23,064 nt of DNA from a virus. The translations under genes and the position numbers were made by a program. Below, one piece after another: positions 10,083 through 20,135 of the stretch. The DNA lies in IMG/VR virus record IMGVR_UViG_3300028146_000037, positions 1-23,064 of that record. One strand, 5' to 3'. The number at the start of each line of letters is the position of its first letter. Within the stretch, counting starts at the first letter, position 1. The notes under the pieces are model-generated. The model ran no database searches. It was not told the origin of the DNA and saw only the letters and a program-made list of their open reading frames with translations.

Positions 10083-10241
10083 CTAACGGTAGTCAGCTTC
10101 TCTGCGCCACCGATCATACCGCCGACACTGGCGATTGATGCACTTGATCAGATAGTTGCGTCGGGGATTGGTTCGCTGTACGCCCGCTCGCAGCTTGCGA
10201 AACATCGCGCAGCCGCATACCTGACAATAGATGTTGGTCAT
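10083..10241 (-). CDS. Zinc-ribbon micro-protein coupled to terL, 52 aa
   Basis: 52 residues starting MTNIYCQVCGCAMFRKL and ending RYDRWRREADYR. The cysteine pattern CQVCGC with CINRQC 25 residues later fits a small zinc ribbon, and the protein is strongly basic. ATG at 10241 overlaps the terL stop as ATGA, so it is translated with the packaging ATPase. Size and Cys spacing recall the Com-type translational activators found near phage head or modification genes, though sequence identity cannot be claimed. Nucleic-acid binding is the likeliest activity. Confidence 0.6.
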   Translation of the reverse strand: MTNIYCQVCGCAMFRKLRAGVQRTNPRRNYLIKCINRQCRRYDRWRREADYR

Positions 10242-11914
10242 CGGTAGCCCTCGCGCATCGCCTGGCGCTTGTCAACCGCGTATCGCAGGGGTTTAGCCCG
10301 GTCAGTCTTAGCTGCGAACACGGTGGCCGCCTGCTTCATCGCCTCAACCGCGTGGGCCGCGCTGAAGATGCAGTCGTCATGCTCGCCGCTGGTCGCCTGA
10401 GCTTTGCCCCGCAGGATGTGAAAGGTGTACAGCTCGTTGAGGGTCTGTTGGCTGCGGATGATGATCCCGCCGTCACCCGGCGAGCCAAGCGCCGTCTCAA
10501 GCCCGCTGATGAATATCTCCTCGCGGTTGGTGCCCTTGACCTTGAACCCCAGCTTCGCGCCCACCGGCTTACCCTCGCCATCATATATCATGCGCTTGGC
10601 GATCCGATCGCGGGGATACTGCCGATCGAGCAGGACCTGCAACGCCGCCTGACCCCAGCCGCCATTCACCTCGATCCCGATCAGCGCCCAGTTGTACCAG
10701 CGGCCCAAGTCGAAGAGATAGTGACCCAGTTCGGTCGGGGTGTAGCGGTCGCGGAGCTGGGCGACCTGCAACCCGACAGGCCAACTAAAGACATCAGCAA
10801 CAGCATAGTCAAGATCACTGCCATCTAACTGATCGGAAGCTTCTTCGCCCTCGACCACATCGCAGCCGATGACATAGTTGCGTTCCGGCTCGGGCTGGTT
10901 CCAGAGGTGCAGGCTGCCATACGGCGTCTCGGTGATGAGCGGCGTCTCACGCCGGCCAACAGCTTGGTACTTCAGCTCCGCGCGATCAGCCGGCTTAGCC
11001 TTATGTAAGGCTATTACATACGCCGGGATGCGCATCTTGCCGGATGCCTGGAAGGCCTCATCAGGCGTAGCGGGATACTCCTGTCTGAACCGCTCGATCT
11101 TGCCTTCACACTTGTTGCGAATTGCCCAGCGTCGCCAGTTCAGCTGGTCGAGCTGCACGCCCTCGCGCTGAAGCGCCGTCTCGTCGTTGTCAAGACTCGT
11201 CTGGAAGATCGCAGGGTCAACATCGAGAGGCCGGGCATACTCTGGGTGCTCATGCCAGGCAAAGAAGATCGGCAGGTAGTCATTATCCCCGGCAACCGCA
11301 GCTTTCCAGAGATCGTGAAACGCGCCGCCCATACCGTTGGCGGTTGATTCCACCACGATCATAGTGTCGGGGTCATCGGGGATCGACTGCAGCAGCCCGG
11401 TCATCAGCGCTTCGGCGTCGGGCCAGAAGGCGTATTCGCTGAGGTGAAGGCGGCGAGTAGTTCTTGAGCGGCCACCTCGAACTGAACCAGCAGTTCTAAC
11501 TTCGATTGCCGATCCATTGTTATATTGAATACCGTCACTCCGATTGCGTCGAGTAATCGCTGGCAACGGTTGAGGCCCGCCATAATGGTCGTTGAATCGC
11601 TCATAGTATTCAAAGATTCGCTGAGCTGAGTCATCGTCGTGGGCATAAACTTGTGTCCTTTGCCCAGCTTGGAAAGCTGTAGCTCTAAAGAAAGCCATAG
11701 CTGTTCCTGTCGAGACAAACACCTGCCGGGCTTTGAGGTAGACGATGCGCACAGGCTGGTTGCGCGCACGCTGTTTAGCTATAGCGTCAAAGAGCTTTAC
11801 TTGCGCTGGGCCCCAGGTTGCGGGGATCAGCTCGCCCTGCTTCGTGCGGACGCGCAGATAGGCTGCGCACCAGTTAGCTTCATCCGCGAAATCAACTAGG
11901 GGTTCAGTTGACAA
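10238..11914 (-). CDS. terL: Terminase large subunit (DNA-packaging ATPase/nuclease)
   Basis: 558 residues from a TTG at 11914 that overlaps the end of terS by 11 bp; the open frame continues 82 codons further, but that part lies over terS and does not look like terminase. Numbering from the TTG: a Walker A-type loop YLKARQVFVST at about 59-69, a Walker B-type LHLSEYAFW with Glu near 160, and the coupling motif VVESTANGMGG near 188-198. The nuclease half has YVIGCDVVEG (Asp about 352), IGIEVNGGW (Glu about 415) and HDDC (about 513). The enzyme cuts concatemeric DNA and pumps it through the portal. The usual KARQ-x-G-x-ST loop has Phe where Gly is expected. Confidence 0.88.
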   Translation of the reverse strand: MSTEPLVDFADEANWCAAYLRVRTKQGELIPATWGPAQVKLFDAIAKQRARNQPVRIVYLKARQVFVSTGTAMAFFRATAFQAGQRTQVYAHDDDSAQRIFEYYERFNDHYGGPQPLPAITRRNRSDGIQYNNGSAIEVRTAGSVRGGRSRTTRRLHLSEYAFWPDAEALMTGLLQSIPDDPDTMIVVESTANGMGGAFHDLWKAAVAGDNDYLPIFFAWHEHPEYARPLDVDPAIFQTSLDNDETALQREGVQLDQLNWRRWAIRNKCEGKIERFRQEYPATPDEAFQASGKMRIPAYVIALHKAKPADRAELKYQAVGRRETPLITETPYGSLHLWNQPEPERNYVIGCDVVEGEEASDQLDGSDLDYAVADVFSWPVGLQVAQLRDRYTPTELGHYLFDLGRWYNWALIGIEVNGGWGQAALQVLLDRQYPRDRIAKRMIYDGEGKPVGAKLGFKVKGTNREEIFISGLETALGSPGDGGIIIRSQQTLNELYTFHILRGKAQATSGEHDDCIFSAAHAVEAMKQAATVFAAKTDRAKPLRYAVDKRQAMREGYR

Positions 11915-12290
11915 GTTGCGTTGTTTCCGCGACTTCCTCGATTGGTTCAAGCGCGGCGAGAATGCGAACTGTTTTGTCGGCGAGGACTCCGTGGAGAACG
12001 GCAAGCTCGGAGGCGGATTGCTTTTGTACATACTGGGCTCGGCCAGCTTCGATGGATTGAGCTTTAAGCGTTCGGAGATTCGTCTGTACATAATCCAGTA
12101 GCAACCATTCGAGCGTTTCACCCTTTTCTGTTGCAACGCGTTGCAGCTGTTCGGGGTCAATCTTGCGACGCCAGCGGCTAACTACTGATTTATCAAGGTG
12201 ATAGGTAGTTGCAACTTGTGCAACGGTCTGGCCGGTCAGGAGCGCCGCCATAACCGCCGCTCTCGTCTCGTCGCTGTGTCGGCTTGCCAC
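11904..12290 (-). CDS. terS: Terminase small subunit-like HTH protein
   Basis: 128 residues from GTG at 12290. Residues 1-42 form a helix-turn-helix of the Hin/transposase-like type: DETRAAVMAALLTGQTVAQV, then ATTYHLDKSVVSRWRRKI. The remainder is helical (EWLLLDYVQTNLRTLKAQSI, KTVRILAALEPIEEVAE) and may oligomerise. Small terminase subunits use such a domain to recognise packaging sites and stimulate terL. Position directly upstream of terL, overlapping it, supports the call. A -10 box (TAGAAT, minus strand) ends only 6 bp from the GTG, so the message may be leaderless. A transcription factor is the alternative, less likely in this position. Confidence 0.72.
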   Translation of the reverse strand: MASRHSDETRAAVMAALLTGQTVAQVATTYHLDKSVVSRWRRKIDPEQLQRVATEKGETLEWLLLDYVQTNLRTLKAQSIEAGRAQYVQKQSASELAVLHGVLADKTVRILAALEPIEEVAETTQLVN

Positions 12291-12386: not shown

Positions 12387-12414
12387 TTGACACTGAATAC
12401 GAATATGATAATAT
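12387..12414 (+). promoter_or_regulatory. Strong sigma70-type promoter for the early genes
   Basis: Consensus TTGACA (12387-12392), a 16-bp spacer and TAATAT (12409-12414). An ATG occurs 9 bp downstream at 12424, and a second with an excellent ribosome site at 12448. It opens the run of small plus-strand genes. Confidence 0.6.
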
Positions 12415-15473: not shown

Positions 15474-15664
15474 GACTCAGTTATAGCGGGTCAGTCAAGC
15501 GGGACAATTTATTGAAGGTTGCAGCGGCTACCACGAAGGCTGACGCAGCCGTGTACTGAAGCGAAGCCTCTCGGTGAGGTTGTTCACGGTTGTTTTTTCG
15601 CGCTTGTCGCGTCGGAATATTCGTGGGCAATCGGGACAACCTCACCTAGGGGCTTTTGCTTTCT
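15474..15664 (+). ncRNA. Structured non-coding leader / possible attenuator RNA
   Basis: No credible reading frame fills this stretch. It contains competing stems: CGGCT (15525-15529) with AGCCG (15547-15551); GGCT (15538-15541) with AGCC (15547-15550); and the terminator stem 15546-15553/15585-15592. Both upstream alternatives would capture the 5' arm of the terminator. Further on, GGTGAGGTTGT (15573-15583) pairs perfectly with ACAACCTCACC (15636-15646). This is the layout of an attenuator upstream of the replication ATPase, or of a roughly 125-nt independent small RNA ending at the T-run. Confidence 0.5.
15546..15598 (+). terminator. Intrinsic terminator within the leader
   Basis: CAGCCGTG (15546-15553) pairs with CACGGTTG (15585-15592) over 8 bp with one G.U. 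Inside is a second hairpin, AGCCTC/GAGGTT around TCGGT (15565-15581). The outer stem is followed at once by TTTTTT (15593-15598). Confidence 0.62.
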
Positions 15665-16669
15665 ATGCCACCACGTATTCTGACGCTGACGCAGCTGAGA
15701 AGCCTTCCGCCTCCTTCGCTTCTTGATGGTACTCATTTGGTTTCGCGCGGCTTAAACATCATCTTTGGCCCGAGCGGTATGTATAAGAGCTTCTACACGC
15801 TGCACCAGGCGTTGATGATTGCTCGTACGCTGCCGGTCGTCTACGTTGCCGCTGAAGGGTCATCAGGCTTTATGAAGCGTATTGATGCCTGGTGTGAGTA
15901 TCACAAGCTGCCGCTGCCTGATGAGCACTTATGGTTCATTCCCGAAGAGGTAAACCTGCTGGACTCGAAAGCGATGATCGAAACAACAAAGGCGATTCAG
16001 GCTAAGACCAGACAAGCAGCCCTCGTGGTGCTCGATACCTATGCCCGCTGTCTGCTTGGTGGTGATGAGAATGCCGCAAAGGATACCGGCATAGCGATTC
16101 ACCAGTGCGCTATGGTTCAGCGAGCATTAGGCGGCGCGGTTGCGCTGATTCACCACACCAACAAGGCCGGCGCAAGCGAGCGTGGCTCTGGAGCGCTACG
16201 CGGTGGCGCGGACCTGATGATTGAGATGAACGCGGATGACGAAGGGCTGATTCAGGTCAAGTGCTCAAAGGTAAAAGACGATGCTGCGTGGCCTCAGGAG
16301 TTCTATCGCTTTTACCCGGTTGGCACATCGGGCGTGCTTGAACCATGTGACGAAAGCTCGCTCGCCTTTATCACCGATCCGCTATCTGAACGCCAGCTGG
16401 AAATACTCAAGTTTCTGGCCCTGCCGGTCTTCACCGAAGCTGGCGCAAGAGCTATTCAGATAGAAAAGGCGCTTAACTTGCCTCATAAGAGCACTTTCCG
16501 CCTGCTAAGTTCACTTAAAGAACGAAGTGTCATCAGTCAAGGAAAATCAGGCGATCCGTATCGCATAAGTGACACTGGTTTATTCGAGCTGGAGTGTCAT
16601 CGCAAGGGAAAAGTGACACAGCGGGTAAATGGTTCAGCAAGCGTGACTACATCGGAAACAGTGTCATAG
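15665..16669 (+). CDS. AAA_25/RepA-like replicative helicase ATPase
   Basis: 334 residues from ATG at 15665; TTG at 15656 is too close to the AGGGG site. RecA-fold core: Walker A GPSGMYKS at residues 35-42, Walker B ALVVLDTY around 119-126, then a sensor HHTNKAGASERGSGALRGGA from 163. The 'HHt.k....RGSgaL.ggaD' signature is that of AAA_25/RepA-type hexameric helicases and KaiC-like phage ATPases. The C-terminal 90 residues resemble a winged helix (LPVFTEAGARAIQIEKALNL then PHKSTFRLLSSLKERSVISQ). It probably unwinds or remodels DNA at a replication start. Tyr replaces the last Gly of the P-loop, as I recall is common in this subgroup. The 3' end of the gene carries several GTGTCA motifs. Confidence 0.78.
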   Translation: MPPRILTLTQLRSLPPPSLLDGTHLVSRGLNIIFGPSGMYKSFYTLHQALMIARTLPVVYVAAEGSSGFMKRIDAWCEYHKLPLPDEHLWFIPEEVNLLDSKAMIETTKAIQAKTRQAALVVLDTYARCLLGGDENAAKDTGIAIHQCAMVQRALGGAVALIHHTNKAGASERGSGALRGGADLMIEMNADDEGLIQVKCSKVKDDAAWPQEFYRFYPVGTSGVLEPCDESSLAFITDPLSERQLEILKFLALPVFTEAGARAIQIEKALNLPHKSTFRLLSSLKERSVISQGKSGDPYRISDTGLFELECHRKGKVTQRVNGSASVTTSETVS

Positions 16670-16769
16670 TGTCAGAGCAGTGTCACGGTGTATTTGACAC
16701 TTGGGTTATGGGCAGTGTCACACAGTGTCACACTCCTTAGGAGTGACACTGTGACACCAACCCTGACAC
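16527..16769. repeat. Cluster of 13 GTGTCA/TGACAC motifs, candidate origin or operator array
   Basis: GTGTCA begins at 16527, 16594, 16661, 16669, 16680, 16715 and 16725; its complement TGACAC begins at 16570, 16614, 16695, 16744, 16752 and 16764. Most copies extend to AGTGTCA(C/T). The cluster starts in the 3' end of the helicase gene and fills the 115-bp gap after it. A 14-bp imperfect hairpin (16721-16753, TTA loop, 2-nt bulge) lies inside and is not followed by a T-run. Confidence 0.7.
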
Positions 16770-16784
16770 CAGGGAGGATACTGA

Positions 16785-17006
16785 ATGCGTGAAATCAGCG
16801 AATATATGATTCTGACGAGTGTGATGCTGGGAGATGTGCATAGCGAGAATGATACGGCTGAGACAACCTTAGCCAATCAGGTTGAAATAGCTTTGGGTGA
16901 CGGATGGCAACCGTTCGGTGCTCCCTGGACTTGGAAGGTGACTAGCCAGTTGAGAATGTCACAGGCGATGGTCAAGTATGCTGACGCAGGACAGGCAACC
17001 AAATGA
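16785..17006 (+). CDS. DUF1737-like small protein
   Basis: 73 residues from ATG at 16785 after GGGAGGAT. The pattern 'L...V..aL.dGWQPfGaPw.........QAMVKY' matches the small DUF1737 family as I recall it, a short beta-alpha protein of unknown function common in phages and bacteria. Here it reads LANQVEIALGDGWQPFGAPW and MSQAMVKYAD. It follows directly on the motif array. The stop overlaps the next ATG (ATGA). Confidence 0.65.
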   Translation: MREISEYMILTSVMLGDVHSENDTAETTLANQVEIALGDGWQPFGAPWTWKVTSQLRMSQAMVKYADAGQATK

Positions 17007-17259: not shown

Positions 17260-17289
17260 TTGACACCACCACCACCACCAGCGTATGAT
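17260..17289 (+). promoter_or_regulatory. Near-consensus sigma70 promoter with (CCA)n spacer
   Basis: Perfect TTGACA (17260-17265), an 18-bp spacer made largely of CCA repeats, and TATGAT (17284-17289). The next ATG is at 17300, only 10 bp after the -10, so the first transcript would have almost no leader. Confidence 0.65.
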
Positions 17290-17299
17290 CGGTCCCGCT

Positions 17300-17422
17300 A
17301 TGAAGAAACAACCAAACGGAAATAAGAATCTAAGGTGCTTCAAGTGTGGGCACCGATGGGTTAGTCGCGTAGAGAAACCAAAGCGGTGTCCTCATTGCTT
17401 TAACGTAAAGTGGGACAAGTAA
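17300..17422 (+). CDS. Zinc-ribbon micro-protein, 40 aa
   Basis: 40 residues: MKKQPNGNKNLRCFKCGHRW, then CPHCFNVKWDK after a short linker. It is a relative of the 39-residue protein at 12648 (C.(R/K)CG..W..R......CP.C.....WDK). ATG at 17300 lies 10 bp after a strong -10 box and no good ribosome site precedes it, so translation may be leaderless. It is followed by the Sak4-like gene after 8 bp, with AAGGAGC in the stop region. A role in regulating the recombination module is possible but not shown. Confidence 0.66.
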   Translation: MKKQPNGNKNLRCFKCGHRWVSRVEKPKRCPHCFNVKWDK

Positions 17423-17430
17423 GGAGCATA

Positions 17431-18246
17431 ATGACGACAAAAGCACAACCTGAACTCCCCACAGCACCAGCCGCAGCAACCCCGCTGAAGATATGCTGCT
17501 ACGCGCAGACGACGCGGCGCAAGACGCTCCAGATAGCCCATCTGATCGAGATGTGTGGTGCGGAGAATGTGCTGGTGGTGTCAGCGGAAGAAGGGTTGAA
17601 TACTATCGCCAGTCGGCTGACCGTGCCTGCGAATGTGATCGCCGTGGCCAACCTCGATGAGTTTCGTGCTGGCTTTCCGCGATTGACGGAGTTTGCGAAA
17701 GGTGACCCTAGCCGATGGATCGCAATCGACGGCGGCACTCAGATAGCCGATTGGGTTGGCAACAACCAGCTTGCTAATGCTGACCGATTCTATGAAAACT
17801 TTGCACGGGGGTTGCCCGCACCCGCCGGCCTCGAAGCTTACAAGCGCTATGTTGGCCGCGATGGTGAACTCAACACGATGCAGATATATGGCCGCATTGG
17901 CCGTGATATGGAGAATATGCTGGCGGCTTGGAAGACGCTGCCGTGCAACCTGTACGCCAACTTCTGGGAAGATTGCACGGTCAACAACGGGTTCAAGGCT
18001 GAGCCGCCCTATGGCCCCGACGTGCCTGGCAAGGTTGGACTCAAGGCCGTGATCGGTGCGTTTGACTTCGTGCTGCGCCTGACCCTGAACGCAAATGACA
18101 AGCTCTGCGCCCAGACCCGCACATCACCGATGGCCCTATGTAAGACCCGCGAGGACCAATTTGCAGGTGTTATTGTACCGCCGGAGATAGTTGACTTCCG
18201 GCTAGATGATTTTATCCGGCTGGTAAAGCCGCAAACTAACGACTAG
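17431..18246 (+). CDS. Sak4/AAA_24-like RecA-fold recombinase with degenerate P-loop
   Basis: 271 residues from ATG at 17431 after AAGGAGC. The fold markers of phage Sak4-type single-strand annealing ATPases are present: VLVVSAEEGLNT at about 47-58, Walker B WIAIDGGTQ with Asp near 100, and the end region PDVPGKVGLKAVIGAFDFVL. The P-loop reads YAQTTRRKT (24-32): Lys and Thr remain but all glycines of GxxGxGKT are gone. It may bind nucleotide weakly, rely on a partner, or act as a filament protein without hydrolysis. Its neighbours, an SSB-like protein and two nucleases, support a role in recombination or concatemer formation. A plain AAA_24 phage nucleotide-binding protein is the alternative label. 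Confidence 0.7.
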   Translation: MTTKAQPELPTAPAAATPLKICCYAQTTRRKTLQIAHLIEMCGAENVLVVSAEEGLNTIASRLTVPANVIAVANLDEFRAGFPRLTEFAKGDPSRWIAIDGGTQIADWVGNNQLANADRFYENFARGLPAPAGLEAYKRYVGRDGELNTMQIYGRIGRDMENMLAAWKTLPCNLYANFWEDCTVNNGFKAEPPYGPDVPGKVGLKAVIGAFDFVLRLTLNANDKLCAQTRTSPMALCKTREDQFAGVIVPPEIVDFRLDDFIRLVKPQTND

Positions 18247-18804: not shown

Positions 18805-19590
18805 ATGCCGATAGCTAAATGGCGATGTCCCAACTGTCTATTACCGCAGGAGCTTGACCACTTTGCGGCCACGCCCTGCGGTAATAGTGTGCACCCGGAT
18901 TATGCTGCTGCTGTCTTAGCAGATGATCGCGGCAAGGATCGCGCTGGTAAGATTGGTGTGACCGATGGGCTGAGCTGCCCGCGTCGCAAGATAATCAGCG
19001 ACACCGAGCAGCTGACCATTGATCCACTGGCCGCCAACAGCCCGCTCACCGGCACCGCTTGGAACGAGAAGCTTGACGCGCATAGCGACTCGCCTGAGCA
19101 GTGCCAGGTTGAAGTGGCTGGCACGATCCTCGGCCTGACCATCGTTGGCCACATTGACCGCGTGCGATTCGTTGGCGGCGACACGGTGATTGACGATCAC
19201 AAACACCAAAACGATTGGTCATTCAAATACACCGCTAAAGGTGAAATCAAGCCCGAGCACGATTGTCAGGTGTCCATTTACGCGGAGCTGTACCGCCAAA
19301 CGTTTGGCCAAGAGGCCGCCTATGCGATGATCTGGACGCACGCTACGGCTGGTGGCTTTGTTGCCCGCCGCGTCGAGCTGTGGCCGCTGGAGCGATGCCT
19401 GAGCTTCAAACCGCACGGCGGCGAGTTCTGCGTGGCTGATCTCTGGCTGCAAGTCGCTGGCGGACTGGCGGGCGATTGGCACAACCTGCCGCTCGCTGGT
19501 GAAGCAATGAGCTTTGGTAGCAAGAGCATGTGCGACTATTGCAGCGTGCGAGAACTGTGCTGGACGACAGCACGCGGGGCAAGCTTTTAA
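18805..19590 (+). CDS. Cas4-like PD-(D/E)XK exonuclease with Fe-S signature
   Basis: 261 residues from ATG at 18805 (AAGGT upstream). Catalytic motifs of the RecB/Cas4 superfamily are visible: GHIDRVRF (Asp 118), VIDDHKH (Asp 131, Lys 133) and QVSIYAELY (Gln 155, Tyr 159). Cys 58 (SCPRRK) together with Cys 243, 246 and 252 (CDYCSVRELC) forms the four-Cys iron-sulphur pattern of Cas4/AddB-type enzymes. An extra N-terminal ribbon-like site is present: CPNC at 8-11, Cys 25 and His 30. It should degrade DNA ends with polarity to give single strands for the Sak4-like recombinase. No other CRISPR genes are nearby, so a phage recombination role is favoured. Confidence 0.8.
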   Translation: MPIAKWRCPNCLLPQELDHFAATPCGNSVHPDYAAAVLADDRGKDRAGKIGVTDGLSCPRRKIISDTEQLTIDPLAANSPLTGTAWNEKLDAHSDSPEQCQVEVAGTILGLTIVGHIDRVRFVGGDTVIDDHKHQNDWSFKYTAKGEIKPEHDCQVSIYAELYRQTFGQEAAYAMIWTHATAGGFVARRVELWPLERCLSFKPHGGEFCVADLWLQVAGGLAGDWHNLPLAGEAMSFGSKSMCDYCSVRELCWTTARGASF

Positions 19591-19613: not shown

Positions 19614-20135
19614 ATGAGCCGGAACGTAGTAACAACTGAAGCGGCGGGTCGCGGTGGCACACGCCACCGTCCGCCGCACCTACCCGCTGTGTTCATCATC
19701 GACACCCGCGAGCAGCGACCCTTTGCACTGGACGGCTATGAGACGCGACGGGCTACTCTCGGTGCTGGTGACTACTCACTTGCCGGATTCGAGCACTGTG
19801 TTGCCGTTGAGCGCAAGAGTCACGCGGATGCTTGGGGATGTGTGGCCGGTTCGCGCGAGCGGTTCGAGCGCTGCCTCGCGCGACTCGCCGCACTGGATCG
19901 CGCCGCCATCGTCATCGAGTGCAACCTGCGCGACTTCGCCGTGCGTCCGGCGCAGGTGCAGCGCGTCACGCCGGCAACCGCCGTGGGCAGCTTTGTGAGC
20001 TGGAGCGTGCAGTTCGGCATCCCGGTGTTCTGGTGCGACAACCGCCGCTACGCCGAGCGGATCACCGTGCGCTATTTGCTATCCTATCTTAAGCATCGAG
20101 GAGGACCAACCAATGGAGACTCGCACCTGGCATAG
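19614..20135 (+). CDS. ERCC4-domain nuclease
   Basis: 173 residues from ATG at 19614. The ERCC4/XPF nuclease core is clear: IIDTREQRPF at 28-37 (Asp 30, Arg 32, Glu 33), GAGDYSLAG at 50-58 (Asp 53), and VERKSHADAW at 65-74 with the ERK-xxx-D signature (Glu 66, Lys 68, Asp 72). RERFERCLARL follows as the usual helix. Such phage enzymes cut branched or flap DNA in a structure-specific way and here probably resolve intermediates made by the upstream recombination proteins. The first 23 residues are a poorly conserved extension; a helix-hairpin-helix domain is absent. Its last codons overlap the next gene by 23 bp. Confidence 0.85.
   Translation: MSRNVVTTEAAGRGGTRHRPPHLPAVFIIDTREQRPFALDGYETRRATLGAGDYSLAGFEHCVAVERKSHADAWGCVAGSRERFERCLARLAALDRAAIVIECNLRDFAVRPAQVQRVTPATAVGSFVSWSVQFGIPVFWCDNRRYAERITVRYLLSYLKHRGGPTNGDSHLA

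Follow-up and report, generated by a model that had tools for sequence, protein, structure and literature searches.

The helicase locus and its repeat array

The window analysed here, the whole stretch of 23,064 bases, is an IMG/VR virus contig that is classed as linear, and the record is thus possibly a fragment. Head and terminase-like genes lie to the left of a RepA-like helicase gene on the opposite strand (terminase-like gene at 10238-12160). On the helicase's own strand follow genes for a small DUF1737 protein, a Sak4-like ATPase, which belongs to the helicase's replication/recombination module, and PD-(D/E)XK and ERCC4 nucleases, all downstream of a dense array of the hexamer GTGTCA and its reverse complement TGACAC that straddles the 3′ end of the helicase gene. 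A near-consensus sigma-70 promoter (TTGACA, 18 bp, TATGAT) is found at 17260-17289, upstream of the Sak4-like gene.

15656..16669, + strand: RepA-like (AAA_25, RecA-fold) helicase gene, 337 aa counted from the first TTG
16388..16603, + strand: winged-helix DNA-binding domain of the helicase, residues 245-316, predicted by AlphaFold
16527(+), 16570(-), 16594(+), 16614(-): outlying hexamer copies inside the helicase gene
16661..16700: left group of putative iterons, beginning at the stop codon; direct copies at 16661, 16669 and 16680 (+), inverted copy at 16695 (-)
16701..16714: spacer of 14 bp separating the two groups
16715..16769: right group of putative iterons; direct copies at 16715 and 16725 (+), hairpin, inverted copies at 16744, 16752 and 16764 (-)
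16721..16753: bulged dyad CACAGTGTCACACTCCTTAGGAGTGACACTGTG; motif (+), 2 nt, stem, TTA loop, stem, motif (-)
16785..17006, + strand: small DUF1737 protein, the first gene past the array (Pfam E 2e-5)
17410..18246, + strand: Sak4-like ssDNA-annealing ATPase (PHROG 124 E 8e-12; AAA_24)
18805..19590, + strand: PD-(D/E)XK nuclease (Pfam E 2e-8; PHROG 1706)
19614..20135, + strand: ERCC4-type nuclease (Pfam E 3e-10; PHROG 3490)

The sequence-only reading had described thirteen copies of the hexamer in both orientations within 243 bp, where chance predicts fewer than one, and the count bears this out. Thirteen copies, all exact, lie at 16527-16769 (7 GTGTCA and 6 TGACAC), against about 0.11 expected in 243 bp from the shuffled mean of 10.4 over 23,064 bases. 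The proposed count over the whole record returned 20 copies and a single cluster, the 7 copies outside the array being at or below chance (about 10 expected). Scanned in 400-bp windows, the record offers nothing close: the runner-up hexamer has 7 copies, all in one orientation, and across 100 dinucleotide-preserving shuffles of the array segment no two-orientation hexamer exceeded 5 copies. Nine of the 13 copies fall between the stop-codon region (16661) and 16769, directly 3′ of the helicase gene, while the in-gene copies alternate in orientation and occupy two reading frames, and so do not represent a protein repeat. The array contains two sets of repeats, and the 14-bp spacer between them is not AT-rich; no AT-rich melting region was found between the groups, and the least stable 40-mer of the stretch starts at 16506, within the gene. 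The spacings of the hexamer sites show no clear helical phasing. GC skew, suggested as a further check, tracks the orientation of the genes, with no switch at the array.

A 14-bp hairpin had also been placed in the middle of the array. A hairpin is indeed present there, but its size is better described as two perfect 11-nt arms (16721-16731 and 16743-16753) with 11 nt between them, where the inner stem is CACTCC-TTA-GGAGTG. Folded as single-stranded DNA, the segment 16655-16775 gives z = -3.3.

The claim that the neighbouring gene encodes a RepA-like helicase is upheld by both profile and fold. The protein, whose start codon may be the ATG at 15665 instead of the first TTG, matches AAA_25 in Pfam (E 9.6e-25) and polymerase/primase and helicase families in PHROG; the closest solved helicase by PDB profile is RSF1010 RepA (1g8y/1nlf/1olo, E 4e-18), which is also among the closest structures by fold comparison. 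The AlphaFold model of the whole protein consists of a RecA core followed, after residue 244, by elements in the order H-E-H-H-E-E-H, which is that of a winged helix. Modelled alone, this predicted domain has a pLDDT of 95, and Foldseek matches it best to winged-helix regulators, those of MarR type among them, several of which are DNA-bound. The 337 residues comprise AAA_25 and the winged helix only, without a fused TOPRIM primase, and no primase was recognised among the record proteins scanned. The N-terminal extension carried by helicases of relatives, annotated as primase in several, is absent from the record's helicase. A single-sequence search of viral contigs returned no close relatives of the helicase.

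Arrays and dyads beside related helicases

Relatives of the helicase were gathered from viral contigs and annotated phages and clustered at 80% identity into 38 clusters, and a motif-blind scan recorded the commonest two-orientation hexamer around each helicase stop. At least 7 copies of one such hexamer were present within -150..+300 of the stop in 16 of the 38 clusters, a level reached by none of 100 shuffles and by no other windows of the same loci. Conservation of the motif in relatives had been expected; instead, the word is exchanged between lineages, and it is the layout that stays conserved. The words used by relatives are CGTAAC, CGCAAC, CGCACC, CGTACC, CGTAGC, GGTAAC, AGTACG, GGACAA, CGGATA, AACGGA, GGTTCA and GGTCCA, where GGTTCA forms the arrays at the helicase stop of the cultured Alteromonas phages XX1924 and PB15. 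The common order is 3-4 direct copies, 1 inverted copy, a spacer, 2-3 direct copies, the hairpin, and 2-3 inverted copies about 8 bp apart, as in the following arrays, with positions relative to the stop.

Record (GTGTCA): -9+ -1+ 10+ 25-, spacer, 45+ 55+, hairpin, 74- 82- 94-
L375 (GGTCCA): 10+ 19+ 30+ 46-, spacer, 66+ 74+, hairpin, 97- 105-
L432 (CGTAAC): -5+ 4+ 14+ 24+ 33-, spacer, 58+ 63+ 68+, hairpin, 88- 96- 116-

The remaining 22 of the 38 clusters, including mycobacteriophage, Gordonia, Nocardia and Caulobacter relatives, fall short of this array level. A separate check found no array in Salmonella and E. coli phage relatives, or in isolated Kagunavirus, Jerseyvirus and Corynebacterium phage relatives. 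With the actinobacteriophage, Salmonella and E. coli relatives lacking it, the feature is confined to part of the helicase family.

Several loci depart from this position or host. In L392 (+234..+548 of the helicase stop) and L439 (+850..+976), array and dyad of this kind lie several hundred bases farther downstream, as an insertion between the helicase stop and the array would leave them. Manatee Spring phage ctyzp037 carries a GGGACA array (L363:4901-5300; 6+/4-) in a region of small genes more than 1 kb past its RepA-like gene. The 38-kb plasmid p1 of Caenibius sp. WL, possibly a phage-plasmid, has a CGGAAG array directly 3′ of an AAA ATPase gene (L459:3543-3914), and shares this word with EBPR siphovirus 5 (L364).

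The dyad at the centre of the right group recurs in relatives in a constant form: a direct copy and an inverted copy enclose a stem-loop, with 2-3 unpaired bases setting the stem apart from the direct copy. The stem varies from phage to phage, while the loop is usually TTTA and sometimes TATA; in the record it is TTA. In a search that was independent of the word, 37 of the 91 family loci, from 12 of the 38 clusters, had this dyad at the helicase stop and 2 further family loci had it farther downstream, with 0 matches in 2.93 Mb of other loci. The record passes this bulged-dyad criterion at its own helicase stop (16721-16753), with TTA for TTTA; the TTA loop was admitted to the search because of the record, which is its sole user among the arrays examined. 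When the loop was left free, TTTA was by far the commonest tetraloop, with 34 dyads against 7 for the next. The Polaromonas plasmid pPNAP03 shows a helicase RepA gene followed by the hairpin CCACCCCCTTTAGGGGGTGG (L458:3598-3617), without an evident iteron array.

How the word relates to the protein was assessed across a small sample of 17 aligned relatives. With the helicase core corrected for, word similarity correlates with similarity of the C-terminal domain (partial r 0.23, permutation P 0.014), while the reverse comparison, of word with core, gives a partial r of 0.12 (P 0.12). The word thus follows the C-terminal domain somewhat better than it follows the core, which lends modest support to the domain being what reads the hexamer. 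The C-terminal sequences are of two types, with a recognisable winged helix in the record, L375, L376 and L372, and a domain of the other type, without a Pfam name, in most array-bearing relatives.

The word GTGTCA itself was followed by a pattern scan for clustered GTGWCAC across other phages, so that the arrays recovered were selected by motif. The scan returned many GTGTCA arrays, many of them one-orientation coding repeats. Two-orientation arrays adjoin DnaB, VapE-like, PrimPol-D5 and DUF3987 helicases and also occur inside HTH_36 O-like initiator genes; being motif-selected, they show the word recurring at replication genes and not its frequency. Two-orientation arrays of at least 6 copies numbered 36 of 120 with the motif and 9 of 119 with a reversed-motif control, a contrast that is itself motif-selected. 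At DnaB, PrimPol-DUF3987, VapE-like and PrimPol-D5 genes, such arrays lie at L087:4522-4807, L093:7769-8005, L044:5213-5506, L076:3048-3284 and L096:3968-4250, and the bulged TTTA hairpin was not found at any of these five. Genes annotated HTH_36 'replication initiation O-like' hold internal two-orientation arrays, in the manner of lambda-type origins, in L120, L074, L027, L147, L106, L125, L073 and L039. The idea of GTGTCA as a universal iteron was rejected, given the motif-selected scan, the many one-orientation coding repeats and the other words used by the helicase relatives.

A candidate replication origin and its alternatives

Taken with the sequence comparisons and the structural model, the array is very probably the origin of replication of this phage, with the hexamer serving as an iteron bound by the C-terminal winged helix of the adjacent RepA-like helicase. 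Since distant relatives keep the layout at this place but spell the word differently, the arrangement looks like a lock-and-key origin with a changeable key. In the mechanism we propose, the winged-helix domain would bind on both sides of the dyad, to direct copies on its left and to inverted ones on its right, with the consequence that helicase assemblies would face opposite ways on the two sides of the hairpin. Crowding on the iterons would then melt or extrude the bulged hairpin, and the pre-positioned helicase rings could unwind outward, with primers being made on the exposed strands. We infer each of these steps: binding, melting, loading, bidirectionality and priming.

The alternative closest to this reading keeps the origin but assigns the hexamer to another protein, which may be a host factor or a phage initiator that went unrecognised; the helicase would be recruited later. 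There is precedent in RSF1010, where iteron binding falls to a separate RepC and the role of RepA is confined to unwinding (PMC4234260), and several open reading frames of the record are of unknown function. However, the helicase carries a predicted winged helix of its own, the word varies with the C-terminal domain across relatives, and no RepC-like match was recognised among the record proteins scanned, which together leave another binder improbable, at roughly one chance in eight. The sequence-only reading had left the choice between an iteron-type origin and a large operator. As an operator, the hexamers would be the target of a phage regulator, perhaps the helicase, that controls transcription of the downstream recombination genes, and the position of the array after the helicase gene and ahead of the next genes on that strand, the MarR-like fold of the winged helix and the promoter-like TTGACA-18-TATGAT at 17260 would all suit such a role. 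Yet the hexamer elsewhere in the record is at or below chance, and at the helicase stop of distant relatives the array recurs in a shared syntax, spelled in other words but with its central dyad conserved; the origin half of the choice is thereby favoured, and an operator is very unlikely. The overlap of TGACAC with the -35 boxes at 12387 and 17260, which had hinted at a shared regulator, does not revive it, with the 7 copies outside the array set against about 10 expected. The sigma-70 -35 consensus is TTGACA, of which TGACA is a part, so these overlaps need no regulator.

Some partition systems use clusters of short direct and inverted repeats, and a centromere-like partition site or a packaging site could in principle resemble the array. 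No ParA/ParB-like gene was recognised among the record proteins scanned, the terminase-like gene (10238-12160) is far from the array, and in many phages the array keeps its place beside the helicase gene, making either role a distant prospect. Least credible of all is that the hairpin, which does sit 3′ of the helicase gene, is a mere transcription terminator amid hexamers that arose by coincidental local repeat expansion: no T run follows the hairpin, the copies are irregularly spaced, run in either direction and, within the gene, fall in two frames, and the comparison already contradicts it, with the same arrangement built from other words in relatives and no dyad in the 2.93 Mb of other loci.

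Whether the origin reading extends beyond the record to a distinct and widespread class of phage origins is, in our estimate, evenly balanced. In such a class, a replicative helicase of RSF1010-RepA type would double as the initiator by means of a winged helix fused at its C terminus. Its origin would have a fixed syntax, with two iteron groups around a bulged TTTA-type hairpin, and a word that lineages exchange freely along with changes in the C-terminal domain. We found no description of such an origin in the literature searched, which consisted of papers available without subscription. The origins of most environmental phages are unknown, and a recognisable layout beside an easily found helicase gene would allow origins to be predicted in many uncultured phages, while the pairs of word and domain would form a natural data set on how winged helices choose a DNA word.

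Comparison with known initiator-helicase origins

The nearest parallels are the SaPI Rep and SCCmec Cch2 proteins, whose C-terminal domains bind short iterons that directly follow the genes encoding these proteins (PMC7581432), and the PICI origins, where an AT-rich region is flanked by two iteron sets (PMC6092414). The record resembles these in having a putative initiator helicase with a predicted C-terminal DNA-binding domain, and candidate iterons in two sets 3′ of the helicase's own gene. It differs in its helicase, which is of the AAA_25/RSF1010-RepA/RecA type and not of the SaPI Rep/Cch2 type; in its centre, which is a short bulged hairpin between convergent iterons and not an AT-rich region; and in its carrier, a phage with head and terminase-like genes.

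P4 alpha is a replicative helicase whose C-terminal winged helix binds origin repeats (PMC4234260), a combination that the record, with its predicted winged helix, would share. In contrast to the record's protein, P4 alpha contains a fused TOPRIM primase, and both its helicase type and its origin layout are different. At RSF1010 oriV, iterons and hairpins are served by the RepA helicase and a separate iteron-binding RepC (PMC4234260); the record has a RepA-type helicase and putative iterons plus a hairpin as well, whereas its predicted winged helix is fused to the helicase and its hexamers run in both orientations. Plasmid pRN1 has an essential stem-loop directly 3′ of a primase-helicase-winged-helix gene (PMC4234260), similar in placement to the record's hairpin, but this stem-loop is ~100 nt long, is without iterons and belongs with a different helicase. 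Lambda O is likewise a winged-helix initiator whose iterons overlap the coding region; however, O is not a helicase, while the record's gene encodes one, and most of its copies lie past the stop codon. In essence, the array would work like the SaPI/PICI, P4 and RSF1010 origins yet fails one defining feature of each, namely the helicase type, the fused primase and the separate RepC, and it is therefore counted as a variant of the initiator-helicase origin, which would be a parallel to the known ones built on another type of helicase.
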